A stretch of DNA of 59,081 nt from a virus. A program made the position numbers and the translations under genes. The notes beneath the pieces are model-generated. The model searched no databases and was not told where the DNA came from. It was given only the letters and a program-made list of their open reading frames with translations. Shown piece after piece: positions 46,147 through 58,549 of this stretch. The stretch lies in IMG/VR virus record IMGVR_UViG_3300033143_004027, positions 1 through 59,081 of that record. One strand, given 5' to 3'. Within the stretch, counting starts at the first letter, position 1, and every line of letters starts with the position of its first letter.

Positions 46147-47628
46147 TTACCACCCAGACTCTTCTGCGCGTTCCTCCTCCAGTACCGTCGGCTCGGCCTC
46201 CTCCGCCGCCATCTCCTCCTCTCGGGCCTGCAATTCCCCAGCTATGTCATCGAAGCCGAGCAAGTCAAGTACAGATGATACTGCCTGTGCATCTGTCAAC
46301 AGACCACTATCATAACCCTCTATAATGAGCTTGCCCGCCTCGCTGATGTCCTGCCTGGCAATGCGGGGGGCGGGTATGTCATATTGGGCATCTTTAATGC
46401 CTGCCCGCGCCAGAGCAAAGTCAACCAGTTTGCGATAGGCGTCAATCCAGATAGACTGATATGCCCGCATATGAACCAGCGTCGGCCTGTCCATGGTGTG
46501 CGCCGTCGCAAGCCCTGCATTGTCTGGGTCACCCGAATAGTGCAGTGGTATGCCCAGGCCCACGACGCCAGCCATGTGAAACATCCGGCTATTGGTTTCC
46601 GCCTCCCCTGCCCGCGAAGAAGCCCTGTTCACGGACAATTCAGCCTGTGCATTCAGAAAGTTTATCTGGGCAGCAATATTCTCGTTGGCCTCCCCGTCGG
46701 CCCACTGGCCGCGGTCACGTACCTCATCGCGAAGGGTGTCAATGGCCTCGCTGCTGGCATCTACCTTGAGCACATTCATCAGCGCCGCTGTTGCCGCGCT
46801 GACAGTACCCTGGTCTTCGGCGGTCCTTTTGTGGAGCGTAAACCACGGCAAACTCACCGCCGGTTCTGGCCAACCAAAACCACCAGCGTCAATTGCATTT
46901 ATACTAATGTGCAGAAGATGGGCGCCCTTCTCGGCCTTGTTGCCGAGCCTATCATGAAGTGGGTCATTGGCTTCCTCCGTATTGAATATGTCACGATAGA
47001 AGACGACCTTCTTTGTGCCCTTCTCCCGCCAGTTGTTTTCTGTGTCATCCCACTCCAGGTCGGGAATGTGGCACTTATAGTACAATACCCGTGTGAGGTC
47101 GAATGGGTCAATGATGGGTTGTATTACATATTTAGCGGGCATATAGCGAACGGCGGTGCGCTTGTCGCCTTCGGCCCCGCCGCGCAGTATGGCAAAGTAG
47201 TCACCATCAACCAATAGCTGATTAGACGCCCTGTGCTGGGCAACCGTGGAAAACAATGCACTCTGGTTGTCCTGTGCCCACCAGAAGTCATCAATGGCCG
47301 CCTGTACCGCTGGGCGTTTGTCTTTACTGACCGGCCCGTCAATGCCTTGCTCAAAACAGAACTCCGTCATCAGCCGCAGCGCGCCCTTGATAAAGACGTT
47401 ACCGCGTTGGAACTGATAACGACAATTGTCACGGACAACCTGGCGATCCTCTGCCTTCCGCTCCTGCGATAACCGCGTCCAACCGACATCCTCTTTGAGC
47501 CGCTCTATTTCGCGGCTAGACTCTTTCAATTGAAGCCGAGTGTTGTAGAGGTCACCGTTAAGGCGGGAAAGCTCCCCGCCGGTTGCGGCATCGGCAAGTC
47601 TTTTCAGCGAACGTTGTAATAGTCTCAT
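46147..47628 (-). CDS. Portal protein
   Basis: 493 residues from ATG 47628; a longer frame to 47682 begins TTG inside the terminator-like region. Body features of SPP1 gp6-type portals: helical clip (ERKAEDRQVVRDNCRYQF), QSALFSTVAQHRASNQLLVD, KYVIQPIIDPFDLTRVLYY, HISINAIDAGGFGWPEP, and a long C-terminal helix with acidic tail. The portal forms the DNA channel; its place after the terminase is canonical. Confidence 0.75.
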   Translation of the reverse strand: MRLLQRSLKRLADAATGGELSRLNGDLYNTRLQLKESSREIERLKEDVGWTRLSQERKAEDRQVVRDNCRYQFQRGNVFIKGALRLMTEFCFEQGIDGPVSKDKRPAVQAAIDDFWWAQDNQSALFSTVAQHRASNQLLVDGDYFAILRGGAEGDKRTAVRYMPAKYVIQPIIDPFDLTRVLYYKCHIPDLEWDDTENNWREKGTKKVVFYRDIFNTEEANDPLHDRLGNKAEKGAHLLHISINAIDAGGFGWPEPAVSLPWFTLHKRTAEDQGTVSAATAALMNVLKVDASSEAIDTLRDEVRDRGQWADGEANENIAAQINFLNAQAELSVNRASSRAGEAETNSRMFHMAGVVGLGIPLHYSGDPDNAGLATAHTMDRPTLVHMRAYQSIWIDAYRKLVDFALARAGIKDAQYDIPAPRIARQDISEAGKLIIEGYDSGLLTDAQAVSSVLDLLGFDDIAGELQAREEEMAAEEAEPTVLEEERAEESGW

Positions 47629-47680
47629 AATCGCGTAATAAGGCGTTCCTCGGTCTGGGTGGGGGTAGGTTATATCACCC

Positions 47681-47712
47681 AATAGAAACGCGCCCAGAGG
47701 CCGTCAGGCGCG
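47681..47712 (-). terminator. Possible terminator after terL
   Basis: CGCGCC and GGCGCG pair over a 12-base loop, followed by TTTCTATT on the minus strand. Weak stem and interrupted T run. Confidence 0.4.
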
Positions 47713-47725
47713 ATGGTCGGCTATT

Positions 47726-50074
47726 CTAAAGACGGACGGGTTCCACAAGCCGGATACGGGCCTTCTTGCGTACGGGTTCTGTAAGTGCAGCATATGCCCC
47801 GCTGAGTGCGTCAACCTGGTCATCGTGCATCCCGTGTGGAAAATCGTCAACCTCGTCTAAGAATGCTTGATTCCACTCGCCGCGCAAGAGTTTGAGGTTG
47901 CCTGCCTCGGCGGCGATGGCGGCACCCTCTGCCCGCATAACCTTATCACCAGTCACGCGGTCACCCTTGAAGTTGTAACCTATCAGTAAGCGGCTATAGG
48001 CATCAATCGTATCTACCCCGCTGCTGCCTGGTTCCTGTTCCATACGCTGGCGAACATCCTTACCGTCGGCTCGCACTTGTGCTAAGATGTTCTCGGCATT
48101 TACACCAGGCGTCCCCCGAAACCGCCGAACGTGCTTCACGAAGAACATTCTACCCTGCTGCCCAAGCAACAATCCGACCGTCCAGTCACCCTTCTCTGTC
48201 GCCCCTCTATCCCAGTAACGAACATACCTTATGCCTTCGGTTGGCACCTTGTCAACAATCTCAAACCATTCGCGCCGGAAGAGTCCCCCCTCGCGGACGG
48301 TGGGGTTCTGCTGGTAGAGTGCCGCCCACCAGTAGCCGCCTATGGTATCCTTGATTTCCAATAGTCTCTCAAGCGGAAACCGCTCTGGCCAGAGGGCCTC
48401 ACCCACTGCGCGGCCCAACTCGTCTTCTTCTTCGGCTATGGCGGGAAAGTTAATAACCTCAAAGTGCTCATCTGTCTGGTCAATAATGCGCCCAGGCAGG
48501 TCGTCTTTATTCCAGCGCGTTGTGATTATGACGACAGCACCGCCTGGCTCTAACCGGCTATATGCTGTCGAACGATACCAGTCCCATTGCTTCTCACGAA
48601 TGGTAAGTGAGTTGGCTTCCTCGGCGTTCTTGGTGGGGTCGTCAATAAGTAGCACATTCGCGCCACGCCCCGTAACCGCACCACCAACGCCCGCCGTATA
48701 CATACCCCCATCATACCCGTCAAGCTGCCACTCACCCCGCGCAGATACATCGCCGCGAACCGTGACATCGGACAAGCCCCGCTCATAAGCATCCCGCAAT
48801 GAGTCACGAACCCTCATCCCCCAACTTGCAGCAAAGTTGGCCTCGTAGCTGGCCAATATTATGCGCTTCTCTGGAAAGGTGCTCAGATACCAAACGGGAA
48901 ACCAATGGCTGCACATCTCGCTGTTGCAGGTTGGCGCCATACCCTTGCCCGCAAGAAACTGGTGAGACGATGCGGCCACTTCAATACATACCGTATCCGC
49001 GCGTCCCGCCTCTTCAATTGTCAAATAATGATTTGGGCTTCTGCGGGGCTCAATACAGCGGGCTGCCTTGCGCGGCAAGCTGGCGGCATTGGGCATATAA
49101 AACAAGACCCGATATTTAGGCCCGCAGTCAGTACCATAAAGTGTTGCGCGCCCCTTTATCAAAGAAGCCTTATAGCCAAGACTGACAACAAGTTCGCGCA
49201 CACCATTGGCCAAGGCTATTTCTGTACTACAAAACTCTATCTGCCCGCCCGGGGATACATATCCATCAGTATCAATAAGACCCTGCAACAACGATAATCG
49301 CTGGCCTGGGCTTGCCCGCAGGTAACAGGCTGGTACATGCTTATTACCCAGCAGGTTGGCACGACGCAATAAAACCTGCAACCCCAAAACGCCAAAGGTA
49401 TCGGCAGTCGCCCTGTCGCTGGTCTTAAATGCTTCTGCAATACGTTGCCGAATATGCGCGCCGTCTTCGCCGATAGCAGTGATGCTGGCCTGTGTGGAAC
49501 TTCCATCCCCCAGCCAAACCCCAAGTGTATACGGGTCAATGGGAAGTTCGCGGACTGGCAGGTCTAATCCGTCGTGCTTGTCTACCATAACCCTGCGAGG
49601 TGATGTGCGCCCCGCAAGCTTTTCGGTAGTCCAGCGCGTCCGGCGGTTGGGATACTTTCTGTCGGCGCGTACCATCCAATCGTGTTCTGCGTCGGCTATC
49701 AATTCCTCACCACTATCAAGCTTGACACGGAACACAGGACGGTCTTTCCAAACAGGAGATTTGCCTGTTACAACAGTCGGCTTACCCCGCTCGTCAAATA
49801 CAAAGTCACCGACCTCAATATCCCCAATGCAAGACCAGCCATCGGGCGTCGGTATCGGCGTATCAAGAGCCAGGGCCTTTCCGTGCCTTGGTGGCATTGT
49901 CACAAGCAGCCGAGGGCACTTACCGTATGCTACATCTATCAGCTTTTGATTTAACAGCTTGAGGTGTGGCGGGCGTTGCCAGCGGCCATTAGTCAGCGTG
50001 ATTGCCAGCATCGCCGGCGTGGCTCTCGACAAGTCTGTCCTCAAGTTGTTCAACAAGTTCTCTGGTAGGCTCAT
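47726..50074 (-). CDS. terL: Terminase large subunit, interrupted by an intein
   Basis: 782 residues; 464 after removal of the 318-residue intein. The split falls inside Walker A: MPPRHGK is joined after splicing to SEMCSHWF, recreating GKS. Walker B is VLLIDDP; the nuclease part shows RYWDRGATEKGDWTVG and HDDQVDALSGAY. TerL pumps DNA into the prohead and cuts it. The start at 50074 overlaps terS by 86 bases; an ATG at 50011 is an alternative. Confidence 0.9.
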   Translation of the reverse strand: MSLPENLLNNLRTDLSRATPAMLAITLTNGRWQRPPHLKLLNQKLIDVAYGKCPRLLVTMPPRHGKALALDTPIPTPDGWSCIGDIEVGDFVFDERGKPTVVTGKSPVWKDRPVFRVKLDSGEELIADAEHDWMVRADRKYPNRRTRWTTEKLAGRTSPRRVMVDKHDGLDLPVRELPIDPYTLGVWLGDGSSTQASITAIGEDGAHIRQRIAEAFKTSDRATADTFGVLGLQVLLRRANLLGNKHVPACYLRASPGQRLSLLQGLIDTDGYVSPGGQIEFCSTEIALANGVRELVVSLGYKASLIKGRATLYGTDCGPKYRVLFYMPNAASLPRKAARCIEPRRSPNHYLTIEEAGRADTVCIEVAASSHQFLAGKGMAPTCNSEMCSHWFPVWYLSTFPEKRIILASYEANFAASWGMRVRDSLRDAYERGLSDVTVRGDVSARGEWQLDGYDGGMYTAGVGGAVTGRGANVLLIDDPTKNAEEANSLTIREKQWDWYRSTAYSRLEPGGAVVIITTRWNKDDLPGRIIDQTDEHFEVINFPAIAEEEDELGRAVGEALWPERFPLERLLEIKDTIGGYWWAALYQQNPTVREGGLFRREWFEIVDKVPTEGIRYVRYWDRGATEKGDWTVGLLLGQQGRMFFVKHVRRFRGTPGVNAENILAQVRADGKDVRQRMEQEPGSSGVDTIDAYSRLLIGYNFKGDRVTGDKVMRAEGAAIAAEAGNLKLLRGEWNQAFLDEVDDFPHGMHDDQVDALSGAYAALTEPVRKKARIRLVEPVRL
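48923..49876 (-). mobile_element. Class-3-type intein with LAGLIDADG endonuclease in terL
   Basis: Begins with Ala (ALALDTPIPTPDG) and ends APTCN before Ser, so no Cys or Ser stands at position 1. It carries the WCT triad of class 3 inteins: Trp67 (HDWMV), Cys297 (TVCIEV) and Thr316 (APTCN). The penultimate residue is Cys in place of His. Between lie two LAGLIDADG-type helices, LGVWLGDGSS and LLQGLIDTDG, of a homing endonuclease. Confidence 0.88.
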
Positions 50075-50420
50075 CGGTGAGGTCTATTCCGCCGCTGTGC
50101 TTGACGTTGACTGTCTGCTCAACCACCTTGTCCACGCGGTTCAATATCTCTTTGCAGGCAGCTATGCGGGCAGATTCAGTATTAGCACCCCTGAGACTCG
50201 CTGCATCCAAAAGTCCCTGCCAGGCGGCGGGGAATGCTTCAGCCTTAATCTCCTCAACCACGTCAAGTGCCACCTTGCGCCAGCGTTCGGTCTTGCGGGC
50301 GCGGAACAAAGTCATGCGGTTGGTCTTTAATTCGGCGGCTATAGAATCCCAGTACTTGTTGTCTATAATGCGCAGGCGAACCGCCGCGGCAATTTGTTCA
50401 TCGGTTAATCTGGTATCCAT
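49989..50420 (-). CDS. terS: Terminase small subunit
   Basis: 143 residues. N-terminal helix-turn-helix (LTDEQIAAAVRLRIIDNKYW, LKTNRMTLFRARK) for DNA recognition, a helical centre, and an acidic tail. Directly upstream of terL with overlap. The ribosome site is weak. Confidence 0.7.
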   Translation of the reverse strand: MDTRLTDEQIAAAVRLRIIDNKYWDSIAAELKTNRMTLFRARKTERWRKVALDVVEEIKAEAFPAAWQGLLDAASLRGANTESARIAACKEILNRVDKVVEQTVNVKHSGGIDLTDEPTRELVEQLEDRLVESHAGDAGNHAD

Positions 50421-52138: not shown

Positions 52139-53551
52139 TTAGTCTATCAGCTTGTGCTGCTTCTGGCGCGTGGCCTTCTCTAATCGCTTACACTGCATCT
52201 CGCAGTATTCTGCTGAAAGCTCAATTCCAATATAATTGCGGTCTTCTTCGATGCAGACGATGCCAGTAGTGCCCGCTCCAGCGAAGGGGTCAAGGACAGT
52301 GCCAGTCTCTGTTTCTGCCTCCTCACAAGTGCAAGCCGGTTGCCAGCCAATGGTGTGATAAGCCCACTCAAACTGTTCTCCTGTCCGCGAAAAGCCCCCG
52401 CCAACATTATAATACTTGTCCCTGTTCTCAACAGCATCGTGGACTTTCCCCTTAGCCATCTTGTGAGAACGGACATTCGTCTTCTCTTTCTCCACAATCC
52501 GCGCCCACGGCTTCCCGCACTCCACGCAGACCTTCGGCGGGCAGCCAGCGCGGATGGGCTTCCTAATCAAGTCTGGTGGGTACACTGCGAAGTGCGCTTC
52601 GGGGAACGGTGCAGTCGGTATAATCCAGCAGTCGCCAGGGTTCTTGCCGAGGGGATGGAAGGCGTCACCCTCTCCTGGTTCTGGAGCCTGTCGCGCTCCC
52701 GATAGCCGTGGATTATCGCTTGTCTTTCGTCGAGCAGGCCCTCCAACAGGATGCCGTGACATCCGTTTGTCTTGTCTGTCTTTGCTCTTATTGCCAGGCG
52801 GTCTATCTAAAGCAGTATGCGCCTCCCTCACCGCGTCCAGATCAAACCAGTATCGCGCCGATTTGGTGAAGAAGAATATGTGCTCCCACGAACACGAGAA
52901 GCGGTCTTTGACTGAGGACGGCATCGCATTAGGCTTGTGCCAGCAGATGTCGTTGCGGAGCCACCAGCCCCGCTCCTGCATCCCGATGGCGAACCGTGCA
53001 GGCATCATCATCAGGTTCTTCGGCTTGAGCCACTGACCGCCTTCGGGGGCGTTCCAGGCTGGTCGCTTCACTCCTTTAGCGTCTTTGGGCTGATTTACGG
53101 GGGCTCCACCAAAGTAAGTATCCCCCATATTAACCCAACACGTCCCCGTCGGCTTCAACACGCACTTAACCTCGTCAAAGATTTTCCACAGATGCTCAAG
53201 GTAAAGGGAGGGGTGCGGCTCCAAGCCGAGCTGACCATACCAGGCCCCGCACTTCTGGCAAGTGGCGTGCTTATACTCCTTCGGCTCTGTATGGCTCTGT
53301 TCAATAACAGAGTGAGGCCCTTGCTTGACAGCAGCATCTGACTGCTTGACCTCGGTAGTTACCCAATCGTGGTCGCAGTCATCATCCCCGCCGAAGATAG
53401 TAGCAGTCCCTTCGCCATAATCTCGCAAGCCCCAGTACGGCGGCGAAGTCATCACACAGTCAATGCTGTCAGCAGACATATCGGCCAGCACCGACAGCGC
53501 GTCACCCTGCCGAACCTCCCAGCTAAACCTGTCGGATATGAACTTGTTCAC
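52139..53551 (-). CDS. DNA methyltransferase (TSPPYW type)
   Basis: 470 residues from GTG, overlapping the previous stop. CVMTSPPYWGLRDYG is motif IV of N4-cytosine or N6-adenine enzymes; VLDPFAGAGTTGIV is motif I (AdoMet binding), placed after it, the beta order. A long insert with CQKCGAWY and a zinc-like CVECGKPW separates them. No cognate endonuclease is next to it, so an orphan enzyme, possibly for anti-restriction. Confidence 0.8.
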   Translation of the reverse strand: MNKFISDRFSWEVRQGDALSVLADMSADSIDCVMTSPPYWGLRDYGEGTATIFGGDDDCDHDWVTTEVKQSDAAVKQGPHSVIEQSHTEPKEYKHATCQKCGAWYGQLGLEPHPSLYLEHLWKIFDEVKCVLKPTGTCWVNMGDTYFGGAPVNQPKDAKGVKRPAWNAPEGGQWLKPKNLMMMPARFAIGMQERGWWLRNDICWHKPNAMPSSVKDRFSCSWEHIFFFTKSARYWFDLDAVREAHTALDRPPGNKSKDRQDKRMSRHPVGGPARRKTSDNPRLSGARQAPEPGEGDAFHPLGKNPGDCWIIPTAPFPEAHFAVYPPDLIRKPIRAGCPPKVCVECGKPWARIVEKEKTNVRSHKMAKGKVHDAVENRDKYYNVGGGFSRTGEQFEWAYHTIGWQPACTCEEAETETGTVLDPFAGAGTTGIVCIEEDRNYIGIELSAEYCEMQCKRLEKATRQKQHKLID

Positions 53552-53739
53552 TCTATCAGCTTCTTCTCTTGTCGTTTTCTGCTCGGATACTTAAAGCCGC
53601 CAATCTCGGTGATTATACCATCCCGCTGCTTAATGGTCAAGTCCCCGTAGCCGTGCTCGCACCAACGGGCGATATGCTTTATCTTGTCGCCGGACTGTCG
53701 GCTGAGCCAGTCTGTGACTCGCTGAAGGTTGTCGGCCAT
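53548..53739 (-). CDS. Small protein between the methyltransferases
   Basis: 63 residues (MADNLQRVTDWLSRQSGDKI, then IKHIARWCEHGYGDLTIKQ). ATG overlaps the stop of the upstream methyltransferase (TGATG). Basic and helical. Unknown. Confidence 0.5.
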   Translation of the reverse strand: MADNLQRVTDWLSRQSGDKIKHIARWCEHGYGDLTIKQRDGIITEIGGFKYPSRKRQEKKLIE

Positions 53740-55703
53740 CACAACTCCAATCTCTGCTGTTCGTCTTTAGCTAACATCTGTTCGCTTTTCGCGAACGCCG
53801 TTCTCGCCTCGGCAATCTCTACATAATGAGCATCCTGGTCTATGCCGATATATTGCCAGCCACCGTGAATAGCTGCCACCAGGCTGCTACCGCTGCCGAC
53901 GAATGGGTCGAGCATCAGTCCACCAGGAGGGCAGCCCAGCGCCAACAGCCAACCAAAGAGGGCAACGGGCTTACAGGTAGGATGAGTGTTCTGCTGTGCT
54001 TCTACGGGCCCCATCGGTTTTCCTGAGCCCCCAGTCCAATCTGATTGTGCCAGGACAAGTGGCCGACCACCTTGAGCGGGGAATTCTTGCAGCCCCGCGT
54101 TCTTCTCTTTTTTGCTTGGCTTCGTCACGCATATCAGCCCTGCCTTAGCCTGCGCCACCCAATCCTCGTCAAAGCCATTCGCCTCTGCCCAACGGTCAAG
54201 GTCGTAATAGCGATTGTCCGCGCCCATAGCACCGCCGCCGCTGATTAGGTTCGCGGGGAAGCGACCTTCAGGTTTCCAGTTCATATTAGCATCACCAGCC
54301 TTTGCACCGCCAATAGCTATATCGGGTGGTGTTACTTGCCGAGTTACTTGCCCAAAGTCTATATTCTCTTCCCCAAACGGCATCCGTCCCGCATCTATGT
54401 TATAGCCACCGACGCCCCACTTTTTCACATTCTCGCGAATAGGCTTCTCCGACATCGGCTTACGAGCACAAATCACGAACTCGTATGCTGGCTTTAGAGC
54501 GCAAGATTTATAGCCTGCCCAAGTTTTGGCATCGTCAGTGGAAGGGGCGGTGATAGTATTCTGGCCCGAAACCCCAAAGACTCCCGTCTCGGTTGTATTT
54601 GTGCATTCCCATCTCTTGCCGCGCCGCCCATCAGTCACATCTGGCAATTCATATTCCCCCACCTTCACCCTCACGCCAGGCGGCAGGGAAAGGTCTGGCA
54701 CAGGTAGCCGTCGTTCGGGAGCAACTTGTTCTTCGGTAATCCCCATTTGTGCAATAGTTTCATCGTCTGCGCGCCTTAATAATTTAATATTTGTCTGCTG
54801 AAGCATATAGTGATAAGCATTAGACGAGTGCGGCTTCCACGCCTCCAGCTTCTCCTGCTCAGACAGCGGCTCCCAGAAGCGCGAGACGAGGGCGGAGAGG
54901 AGGTTGGTGCCTTCGGTGGAACCTGTTCTGCTGGCTAACGGCCCCCCCTCCCATCCGAAGTCAGCAGTTCGCCCATCACCATACTGCCCATTCACCGCCG
55001 CGCTCGTGGCCTTGCGAACGTGTGCCAGCGTCAACTCGTCCATATAGCCCTCAACAAAGGCCCAGGTGATGCGCTTGCACTCAGGACAGTCTATCTTAAG
55101 TTTGGCGAACTCCTTGTGCTTGTGCTCCCATGGACACTTAATCTTTGTGTACTTATCGGCAACCCATTCGCGGAAGGCAGCCTTGTCGAAGTCTTTGCCG
55201 ATGTCAAGGGCCTTCGGGAAGCCAGAATTATAGCACCATAGGATGGGTTGCAAACTGACGTCAAATCCTGCCATCTCAAGTGCGGCACACTGACGCCAGA
55301 GACAATCTGAACGCGCAGGTGCCATCACAAAGGCAAGCCCGCCAGGTTTCAGAATGCGAAGGCACTCTCGCCAAATAGGAACGAAGAAATCTACAATACC
55401 TCCCGCTGACTGCCGAGGCAACTTCTTGAAACCCTTTTCCTTCTCGTATGCCCCCTGTGGACTGACTATCTCATTCAGCTTCTCAAAGGCGCCATCTCCC
55501 TGAGTTTCCACCTTCATCCCAGGGGACATCCAACCCACTGTCTGTGATTGGGTGGGAGGCTTAGCATTGAATGAGTCCCAGTCTTTTGACATGAAGCCTA
55601 TGCCATAAGGCGGGTCGGTAGCAATACAGTCAATACTCTCGTCGGCTATCAACTTGAGCTTCTCTGCACTATCGCCACAGATTATCTGGTTGGGTTCGGT
55701 CAT
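53739..55703 (-). CDS. DNA methyltransferase (DPPY type), long
   Basis: 654 residues. CIATDPPYGIGFMSKDWD is motif IV and LMLDPFVGSGSSLVAAI motif I, the beta order. The target-recognition insert of ~450 residues has CPWEHK and CPEC and a GKRWECTNTTETGVFG stretch. Larger than most orphan enzymes. Follows a 39-residue membrane peptide with ATGA overlap. Confidence 0.8.
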   Translation of the reverse strand: MTEPNQIICGDSAEKLKLIADESIDCIATDPPYGIGFMSKDWDSFNAKPPTQSQTVGWMSPGMKVETQGDGAFEKLNEIVSPQGAYEKEKGFKKLPRQSAGGIVDFFVPIWRECLRILKPGGLAFVMAPARSDCLWRQCAALEMAGFDVSLQPILWCYNSGFPKALDIGKDFDKAAFREWVADKYTKIKCPWEHKHKEFAKLKIDCPECKRITWAFVEGYMDELTLAHVRKATSAAVNGQYGDGRTADFGWEGGPLASRTGSTEGTNLLSALVSRFWEPLSEQEKLEAWKPHSSNAYHYMLQQTNIKLLRRADDETIAQMGITEEQVAPERRLPVPDLSLPPGVRVKVGEYELPDVTDGRRGKRWECTNTTETGVFGVSGQNTITAPSTDDAKTWAGYKSCALKPAYEFVICARKPMSEKPIRENVKKWGVGGYNIDAGRMPFGEENIDFGQVTRQVTPPDIAIGGAKAGDANMNWKPEGRFPANLISGGGAMGADNRYYDLDRWAEANGFDEDWVAQAKAGLICVTKPSKKEKNAGLQEFPAQGGRPLVLAQSDWTGGSGKPMGPVEAQQNTHPTCKPVALFGWLLALGCPPGGLMLDPFVGSGSSLVAAIHGGWQYIGIDQDAHYVEIAEARTAFAKSEQMLAKDEQQRLEL

Positions 55704-57202: not shown

Positions 57203-58549
57203 TCAAAACCTTATCGCGTCGGATGTACCGTTTTCATATTTGCTCTCCAACTCGCTAAACCTGCCTGAGGCCCAGTCGGCCCTCAATTCCCACGGTAATA
57301 TCATCGGCCCATATCTCTTGTGCGTGTTGATTAACCGGATGGAATCATGCATCCGTGCCTGCGCCGCCGGCAGGTCTTCATCTGCCGGCCCGCGCTCAAT
57401 CTCCCACACCAAGCTCGCCGCGTGTTGTGCTTCACTTGAGTAGAATGTCTTATGGTCTTCACCACTTATCTGGCTGGCCGTTATAAATGGCATACCAGTG
57501 AGGGAATTGGTTGCTAATATCATCGCCAGGGCGGCCTTGATTTCTTCGGTGCGACCACGTGCCCCTGGGTCTACCATTAACTGCAAGTAATCAATGTAAA
57601 CTGCCTCAGGCTTGGGGTCGTCACTATACCAGTGCGCCAGCACATCGGCTTGTATTTCCTGCACAGTGGTCAGGGTCGTGCTCATAATAATGGGTAGGGA
57701 TGCCAGGTCAGACATTGCCTGAGCTATGGCCTCGGCTTGCTGTGGTGTCTGTTGTGCCGCCCCACCAGCGTCTAAGAGCTTCGCCGGCACTCGTGCCAAG
57801 TATGCCACTGCGTGCTGGAGCCAGCGCGTCTTGTTACCCTCTAACACATAGACTAATACGGGGATGCCAGCGCTGGCTGTCTCCAGTATGGACTGCCTGA
57901 GCAACCGTGTCTTACCATACTTCTCCCGTGCCTTGAACACGACGAACTCCCAATTAGCAAAGCCACCCACTATTCTATCCAGCGACGGGAGGCCCAACCG
58001 CGCCCCCCGCACCTCCTTCGGTTGCTGCATAATCCAATTCTGCCACTCCCAATAATCATCATACTCTACTGATAGCGGCATTGCCATTCCTGTGCCGGTA
58101 GTCCTCGCCCGCACCGCGAAGAGTCGGTCGGCTATCATAGCGATAGTTTCGTTGGCCGCCGCCTGGTCATAGGCGGCACCTGTCAGCTTCTCGCCCAGTG
58201 CAGCCAGTTGACGCAGGATGCTTGCCTCAGCTACTATGCCAGCATACCGCTTGATGTGTTCGGCGGTAAATGGCTTGGCCAGCAGCGCCACCAGATACTC
58301 AGCGCTAATATCTTTGAGCTTGCCCTGCCGCCGGAGTTCCGCTGAGACGGTAATTAGTTCGACGCCCCTGTTACTCGTCTGACAGGTCTCTATCGCTGAG
58401 AATATCTCCTGGTGCGCGCCCAGCCAGAAGTCCTCGCGGCGCAGTATAGCAAGCCCACGCACGGCGGCCTTTGGCGACAACATCATCGCGCCAAGCGTTG
58501 CGGCTTCGGCTTCGAGGTCATGTGGTGGGGTCTTGTCGTCTGGCAGCAT
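57203..58549 (-). CDS. dnaB: Replicative DNA helicase, DnaB family
   Basis: 448 residues. N-terminal helical domain (HDLEAEAATLGAMMLSP), Walker A AREKYGKT, Walker B AVYIDYLQLM, and FITASQISG. DnaB unwinds the fork ahead of polymerase. The start overlaps the initiator stop (TAATG), so initiator and helicase are made together. No polymerase or primase is seen in the window; the host probably supplies them. Confidence 0.88.
   Translation of the reverse strand: MLPDDKTPPHDLEAEAATLGAMMLSPKAAVRGLAILRREDFWLGAHQEIFSAIETCQTSNRGVELITVSAELRRQGKLKDISAEYLVALLAKPFTAEHIKRYAGIVAEASILRQLAALGEKLTGAAYDQAAANETIAMIADRLFAVRARTTGTGMAMPLSVEYDDYWEWQNWIMQQPKEVRGARLGLPSLDRIVGGFANWEFVVFKAREKYGKTRLLRQSILETASAGIPVLVYVLEGNKTRWLQHAVAYLARVPAKLLDAGGAAQQTPQQAEAIAQAMSDLASLPIIMSTTLTTVQEIQADVLAHWYSDDPKPEAVYIDYLQLMVDPGARGRTEEIKAALAMILATNSLTGMPFITASQISGEDHKTFYSSEAQHAASLVWEIERGPADEDLPAAQARMHDSIRLINTHKRYGPMILPWELRADWASGRFSELESKYENGTSDAIRF

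Follow-up and report, generated by a model that had tools for sequence, protein, structure and literature searches.

The large terminase subunit gene (terL) of this virus very probably took up, at the codons of its Walker A motif, a full-length class 3 intein that includes a LAGLIDADG homing endonuclease and is probably active. The window, by which we mean the whole stretch of DNA that was analysed, comprises 59,081 bases, which is the size of the virus record. In it terL is accompanied by genes for the small terminase subunit and the portal protein, with head and tail genes further on, and these packaging, portal, head and tail neighbours indicate a tailed phage contig. The terL reading frame matches Terminase_6N and Terminase_6C in a Pfam profile search, plus LAGLIDADG_3. 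The insert occupies residues 67-384 of the TerL precursor and translates in frame without a stop (Table 1). One feature that speaks against this explanation is the missing penultimate histidine.

Table 1. Coordinates of terL, its insert and the flanking genes in the window
Feature	Positions	Strand	Basis or comparison
TerL ORF, intein included, 782 aa precursor	47726..50074	minus	Pfam Terminase_6N and Terminase_6C
N-extein, 66 aa, end ...MPPRHGK	49877..50074	minus	uninterrupted in L001 and L181
Walker A Gly-Lys codons, immediately ahead of insert	49877..49882	minus	translation
Predicted class 3 intein, 318 aa	48923..49876	minus	sequence and alignment to relatives
Ala1 (position 1 without Cys or Ser nucleophile)	49874..49876	minus	translation
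His65 (B:10)	49682..49684	minus	172/172 inteins
Trp67 (B:12), WCT triad	49676..49678	minus	171/172 inteins
Predicted LAGLIDADG homing endonuclease domain, residues about 107-279	49040..49558	minus	2dch match range
First LAGLIDADG motif TLGVWLGDG, Asp124	49502..49528	minus	aligned with PI-SceI YLLGLWIGDG
Second LAGLIDADG motif LLQGLIDTDG, Asp202 and Asp204	49262..49291	minus	aligned with PI-SceI FLAGLIDSDG
Cys297 (F:4), presumed initiating nucleophile	48986..48988	minus	172/172 inteins
Thr316 (G:5), WCT triad	48929..48931	minus	171/172 inteins
Cys317 (G:6), where penultimate His is usual	48926..48928	minus	Cys in 4/172
Asn318 (G:7), presumed to cyclise	48923..48925	minus	172/172 inteins
C-extein, 398 aa, start SEMCSHWF	47726..48922	minus	Ser+1 at 48920-48922
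Terminase small subunit, 86-nt overlap with TerL start	49989..50420	minus	PHROG 2538
Portal protein	46147..47682	minus	91% identical in intein-free L001

Judged by the flanking residues, the insert splits the Walker A motif after Lys and before Ser (PPRHGK/S). The same terminase occurs without the insert in two related viral contigs, L001 and L181. TerL of L001 has 457 amino acids, reads MPPRHGKSEICSHWFPVWYLS and is 86% identical in protein sequence to that of the window, and TerL of L181 reads MPPRHGKSEMCSHWFPVWYLS and is 78% identical across the C-extein. These uninterrupted alleles fix both boundaries of the intein to the codon without recourse to a model. An earlier note on this DNA had located an intein here, inside the Walker A loop at GK/S; its coordinates prove exact, the frame on the minus strand is open, and the flanks together with the two empty sites confirm the Lys/Ser junction. 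Scans of viral_contigs with the portal protein and with the C-extein found no third close relative.

The class 3 type that the earlier note proposed is borne out by profile, sequence and predicted fold, which agree. Class 3 inteins are defined by a Trp-Cys-Thr (WCT) triad (PMC5050341). The window intein has Ala instead of Cys or Ser at position 1, and its Trp67, Cys297 and Thr316 form a complete triad in register with that of the class 3 DnaB intein 6bs8. His65 at B:10, the terminal Asn318 at G:7 and the nucleophile Ser+1 are also present; a penultimate His at G:6, which is common in class 3 inteins and does not define them, is replaced by Cys317. A phmmer search of the PDB returns the class 3 DnaB inteins 6bs8, 6rix and 6riy (E = 1.5e-18 to 1.2e-17). 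Residues 1-70 align to 6bs8 and 6rix without a gap, as do residues 1-69 to 6riy, and Cys297, Thr316 and Asn318 align with Cys, Thr and Asn of 6bs8. These structures represent M. smegmatis DnaBi1 and M. chimaera DnaB1, in which His65 and Trp67 carry the same numbers as in the window intein. Unlike it, they are mini-inteins in DnaB that lack an endonuclease and have the penultimate His.

An AlphaFold2 model of the intein, built on 60 aligned sequences (pLDDT 97.3, pTM 0.93), predicts a HINT fold like that of solved class 3 inteins. In VIA-align comparisons the model matches PI-SceI (1ef0) over its whole length (Z = 27.2, rmsd 3.3, 315 residues) and the class 3 splicing domain 6bs8_C more tightly (Z = 22.4, rmsd 1.2, 124 residues); the closest solved splicing domains are those of the class 3 DnaB inteins, whose fold the model shares. 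Its endonuclease region matches I-Tsp061I (2dch; Z = 14.0), and the Pfam LAGLIDADG_3 match scores 28.2 bits, above the cut-off of 22.5. Both LAGLIDADG motifs are intact and keep their acidic residues Asp124, Asp202 and Asp204, at positions which we take to include the catalytic acids of PI-SceI. Motifs, profile match and predicted fold therefore all point to a complete endonuclease, as had been claimed. Among the 172 class 3 relatives surveyed below, Asp204 is kept in 171 and Asp124 in 152. The Asp124 column otherwise holds Asn (18), Ala (1) or His (1), which suggests that the endonuclease has decayed in part of the family.

Tori and Perler are said to have proposed a phage origin for class 3 inteins in 2011. 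TerL is the commonest intein host in mycobacteriophages, and its P-loop site between Lys and Thr, termed TerL1-a, is occupied by class 3 inteins with the WCT triad (PMC5050341). The window intein lies at a site of this type in a Terminase_6 protein. Class 3 inteins at phage TerL P-loops are thus already published (PMC5050341) and are common in the collections searched here. The class, the Walker A site and the endonuclease of the element stand, but it is not unusual in kind, and what is known of class 3 inteins in the packaging genes of phages is unchanged by it.

A tblastn search against phages finds 749 matching records, 495 of them spanning 80% or more of the intein. TerL of Gordonia phage YungMoney (MZ150791; E = 3e-73) ranks first, ahead of many mycobacteriophage TerL proteins. 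This match, the PDB hits and the two uninterrupted alleles show that the intein is no chance resemblance. The YungMoney intein is 46% identical over all 318 residues, is likewise inserted at GK/S and also lacks the penultimate His; it differs in having Arg at G:6 and in possessing Cys48, and its C-extein is about 34% identical to that of the window over 240 residues. The mycobacteriophage P-loop inteins (TerL1-a, PMC5050341; for example in phage Traaww1) share the WCT triad, the LAGLIDADG endonuclease and the Lys/Ser or Lys/Thr insertion, and as inteins they are 39% identical to that of the window across its full 318 residues. They have His where the window has Cys, and the P-loop examples described in PMC5050341 sit in terminase_1 rather than Terminase_6 proteins. 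The closest intein found overall is in TerL of L020 (IMG/VR 3300031989_000025). It is 54% identical and inserted at PPQHGK/S, whereas it keeps the penultimate His and has Asn at the Asp204 position of the second LAGLIDADG motif. In an alignment of 12 sequences His65, Cys297, Thr316 and Asn318 are invariant and Trp67 is nearly so.

The main survey covers 176 regions, four of which are incomplete (L095, L025, L175 and L144). The 172 complete inteins come from 170 fetched loci, one of them carrying two, and from the window itself. Each row stands for a locus rather than for an independent event, and there are 169 different sequences among the 172. Because the loci were collected by their resemblance to class 3 inteins, the counts characterise the family and are no blind test of it. 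The WCT triad is complete in 170 of the 172. One frame of L094 (IMG/VR 3300036668_000246, frame 0) encodes a terminase-like protein of 1166 amino acids with two complete class 3 inteins, the second of which ends in PTSN and so has a penultimate Ser. In many mycobacteriophages (for example Breeniome, L010) a gene annotated as an exonuclease or HNH endonuclease contains a class 3 intein 36% identical to that of the window.

The distribution of identities shows that the intein has moved. Compared with L020, the window intein is 54% identical while the C-extein is just 28% identical over 412 residues. Among 134 intein-bearing relatives the best-scoring C-extein, from L022, reaches 34%, and that of the intein-free L001 is far closer, at 86%. 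This mismatch and the closeness of L001 imply transfer between distant terminases, and high intein but low C-extein identity is the sequence pattern expected of a homing element. One terminase with a filled allele here and two unfilled alleles in related phages provides a clean natural example of intein mobility. The insert and the window are alike in GC content (0.539 and 0.536), so that composition holds no hint of recent import. The 200 nt ahead of the insert are 92-100% identical to L001 in 50-column windows. The first six 100-column stretches after it are 84, 89, 85, 71, 68 and 66% identical, and the next 21 are 84-97% identical, so that about 600 nt downstream of the insert diverge more from L001 than the remainder does. 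Such a pattern would fit co-conversion, but we do not claim it for the window phage, since the foreign stretch may belong to either the window or L001 and L181 does not discriminate between them.

If the intein works as its residues suggest, the unspliced TerL precursor would be unable to form its ATP site. Cys297, helped by His65 and the Trp67/Thr316 pair, would attack the Lys-Ala1 bond to give a block F branched intermediate, and the N-extein would then be transferred to Ser+1. Cyclisation of Asn318 would free the intein and restore PPRHGKS. The endonuclease would cut intein-free terL alleles, such as those of the L001 or L181 type, and repair would copy the intein in. We infer both the splicing chemistry and the DNA cutting. 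Splicing is lost in three other class 3 inteins when Cys F:4, His B:10 or Trp B:12 is mutated (PMC5222942).

Cys317 at the penultimate position had been singled out as an added oddity. The residue is confirmed and is rare, but it is no lone case. Position G:6 is His in 162 of the 172 inteins, Cys in 4 (the window, L104, L105 and L142), Gly in 2, and Ser, Arg, Met and Leu in 1 each. In another 79 loci, retrieved by searching with the L104 intein and hence tilted toward its clade, and with some rows gapped in the N-terminal blocks, the residue is His in 75, Cys in 2, Gly in 1 and Ser in 1. L104 (Actinoallomurus), L105 (Piscicoccus) and L142 are class 3 inteins that end in PTCN, as the window intein does, with identities to it of 44%, 43% and 36%. 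Their insertion contexts differ from that of the window. L104 and L105 are inserted at PQK/TGK in frames that appear terminase-like from their flanks, although Pfam finds LAGLIDADG_3 alone, and L142 lies in a Mu-type portal protein. On a FastTree phylogeny of 159 rows, from which the last three residues were excluded and which has long branches and 52 weak forks among 152, His/non-His requires 7 changes and Cys/non-Cys 3 (to or from Cys), with the Cys of L104, L105 and L142 a change separate from that of the window. The penultimate Cys is thus rare and recurrent in these sequences, and the frames that hold it are open. A partial literature search met no class 3 intein with Cys at G:6, and we claim no priority. 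As a rare active-site variant, the window intein is relevant to the question of how cleavage at the C-terminal junction proceeds in class 3 inteins that lack the penultimate His.

One possible role for Cys317, which we consider unlikely, is that of a switch, in which a disulfide or metal site near Cys297 pauses splicing until the cell is permissive. In the M. smegmatis class 3 intein DnaBi1, splicing pauses when Cys48 and Cys118 form a disulfide or when zinc binds Cys118 (PMC6195587, PMC7360933). Cys48 is absent from each of the four inteins in the 172-intein survey that have Cys at G:6, and Cys317 might take its place; position 48 is Val in the window. Cys48 is lacking in 8 of 9 inteins without the penultimate His and in 55 of 150 with it (Fisher p = 0.003), but this link is lost on tree pairing, with about two informative independent pairs once kinship is considered. 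Furthermore, the Gly, Arg, Met, Leu and Ser found at G:6 in other inteins cannot form disulfides. It is similarly improbable that Cys recurrently took the place of the penultimate His for a function, pairing with Cys297 in a redox or zinc switch that would let the DNA-packaging motor assemble under permissive conditions only. A candidate association between Asp62 and the penultimate residue (raw p = 0.03) is likewise unsupported after tree pairing. The authors of the DnaBi1 work call Cys48, which there forms the disulfide with the catalytic Cys, non-conserved (PMC6195587). This residue is present in 106 of the 172 class 3 inteins, and the redox pair may therefore be widespread among them.

A decayed intein, no longer able to splice properly without its penultimate His, in a contig from a defective or dying lineage, is very unlikely. 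His G:6 helps the reactions at the C-terminal junction in inteins of all classes (PMC5222942), and Cys is rare at this position. However, the reading frame, the WCT triad, both endonuclease motifs and TerL are all intact, and other class 3 inteins without this His lie in open terminase-like or portal frames. Several inteins that lack the penultimate His are reported to splice (PMC7664689), and introducing His in one mycobacteriophage class 1 intein caused precursor build-up and worse splicing (PMC5050341). A P-loop that stayed unspliced should also be lethal to the phage. By analogy with these cases the window intein would splice, perhaps slowly or under some condition, with Cys317 presumably tolerated or compensated. 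It is extremely improbable that the intein belongs to class 1 or class 2 and merely resembles class 3. By definition class 1 has Cys or Ser at position 1, which rules it out here. Ala at position 1 also occurs in class 2 inteins (PMC4031507), but the description of these is of KlbA orthologues that have Ser at G:6 (PMC4031507). The window intein moreover has the full WCT triad, and class 3 inteins are its closest relatives both in sequence and in the fold of the splicing domain.

Several other features of the contig can be noted. DNA similarity between L001 (1-750) and the window begins no further than about 230 nt ahead of the insertion site, inside the end of the small subunit gene, and the small subunits therefore seem to have been exchanged. 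No tRNA genes were found in the window. Two adjacent N6/N4 DNA methyltransferase genes lie near the packaging genes on the minus strand (52139-53551 and 53739-55703). The same strand encodes a DnaB-type replicative helicase (57203-58549), whose 448-aa ORF matches DnaB domains but not LAGLIDADG; elsewhere the DnaB helicase is a host of class 3 inteins.
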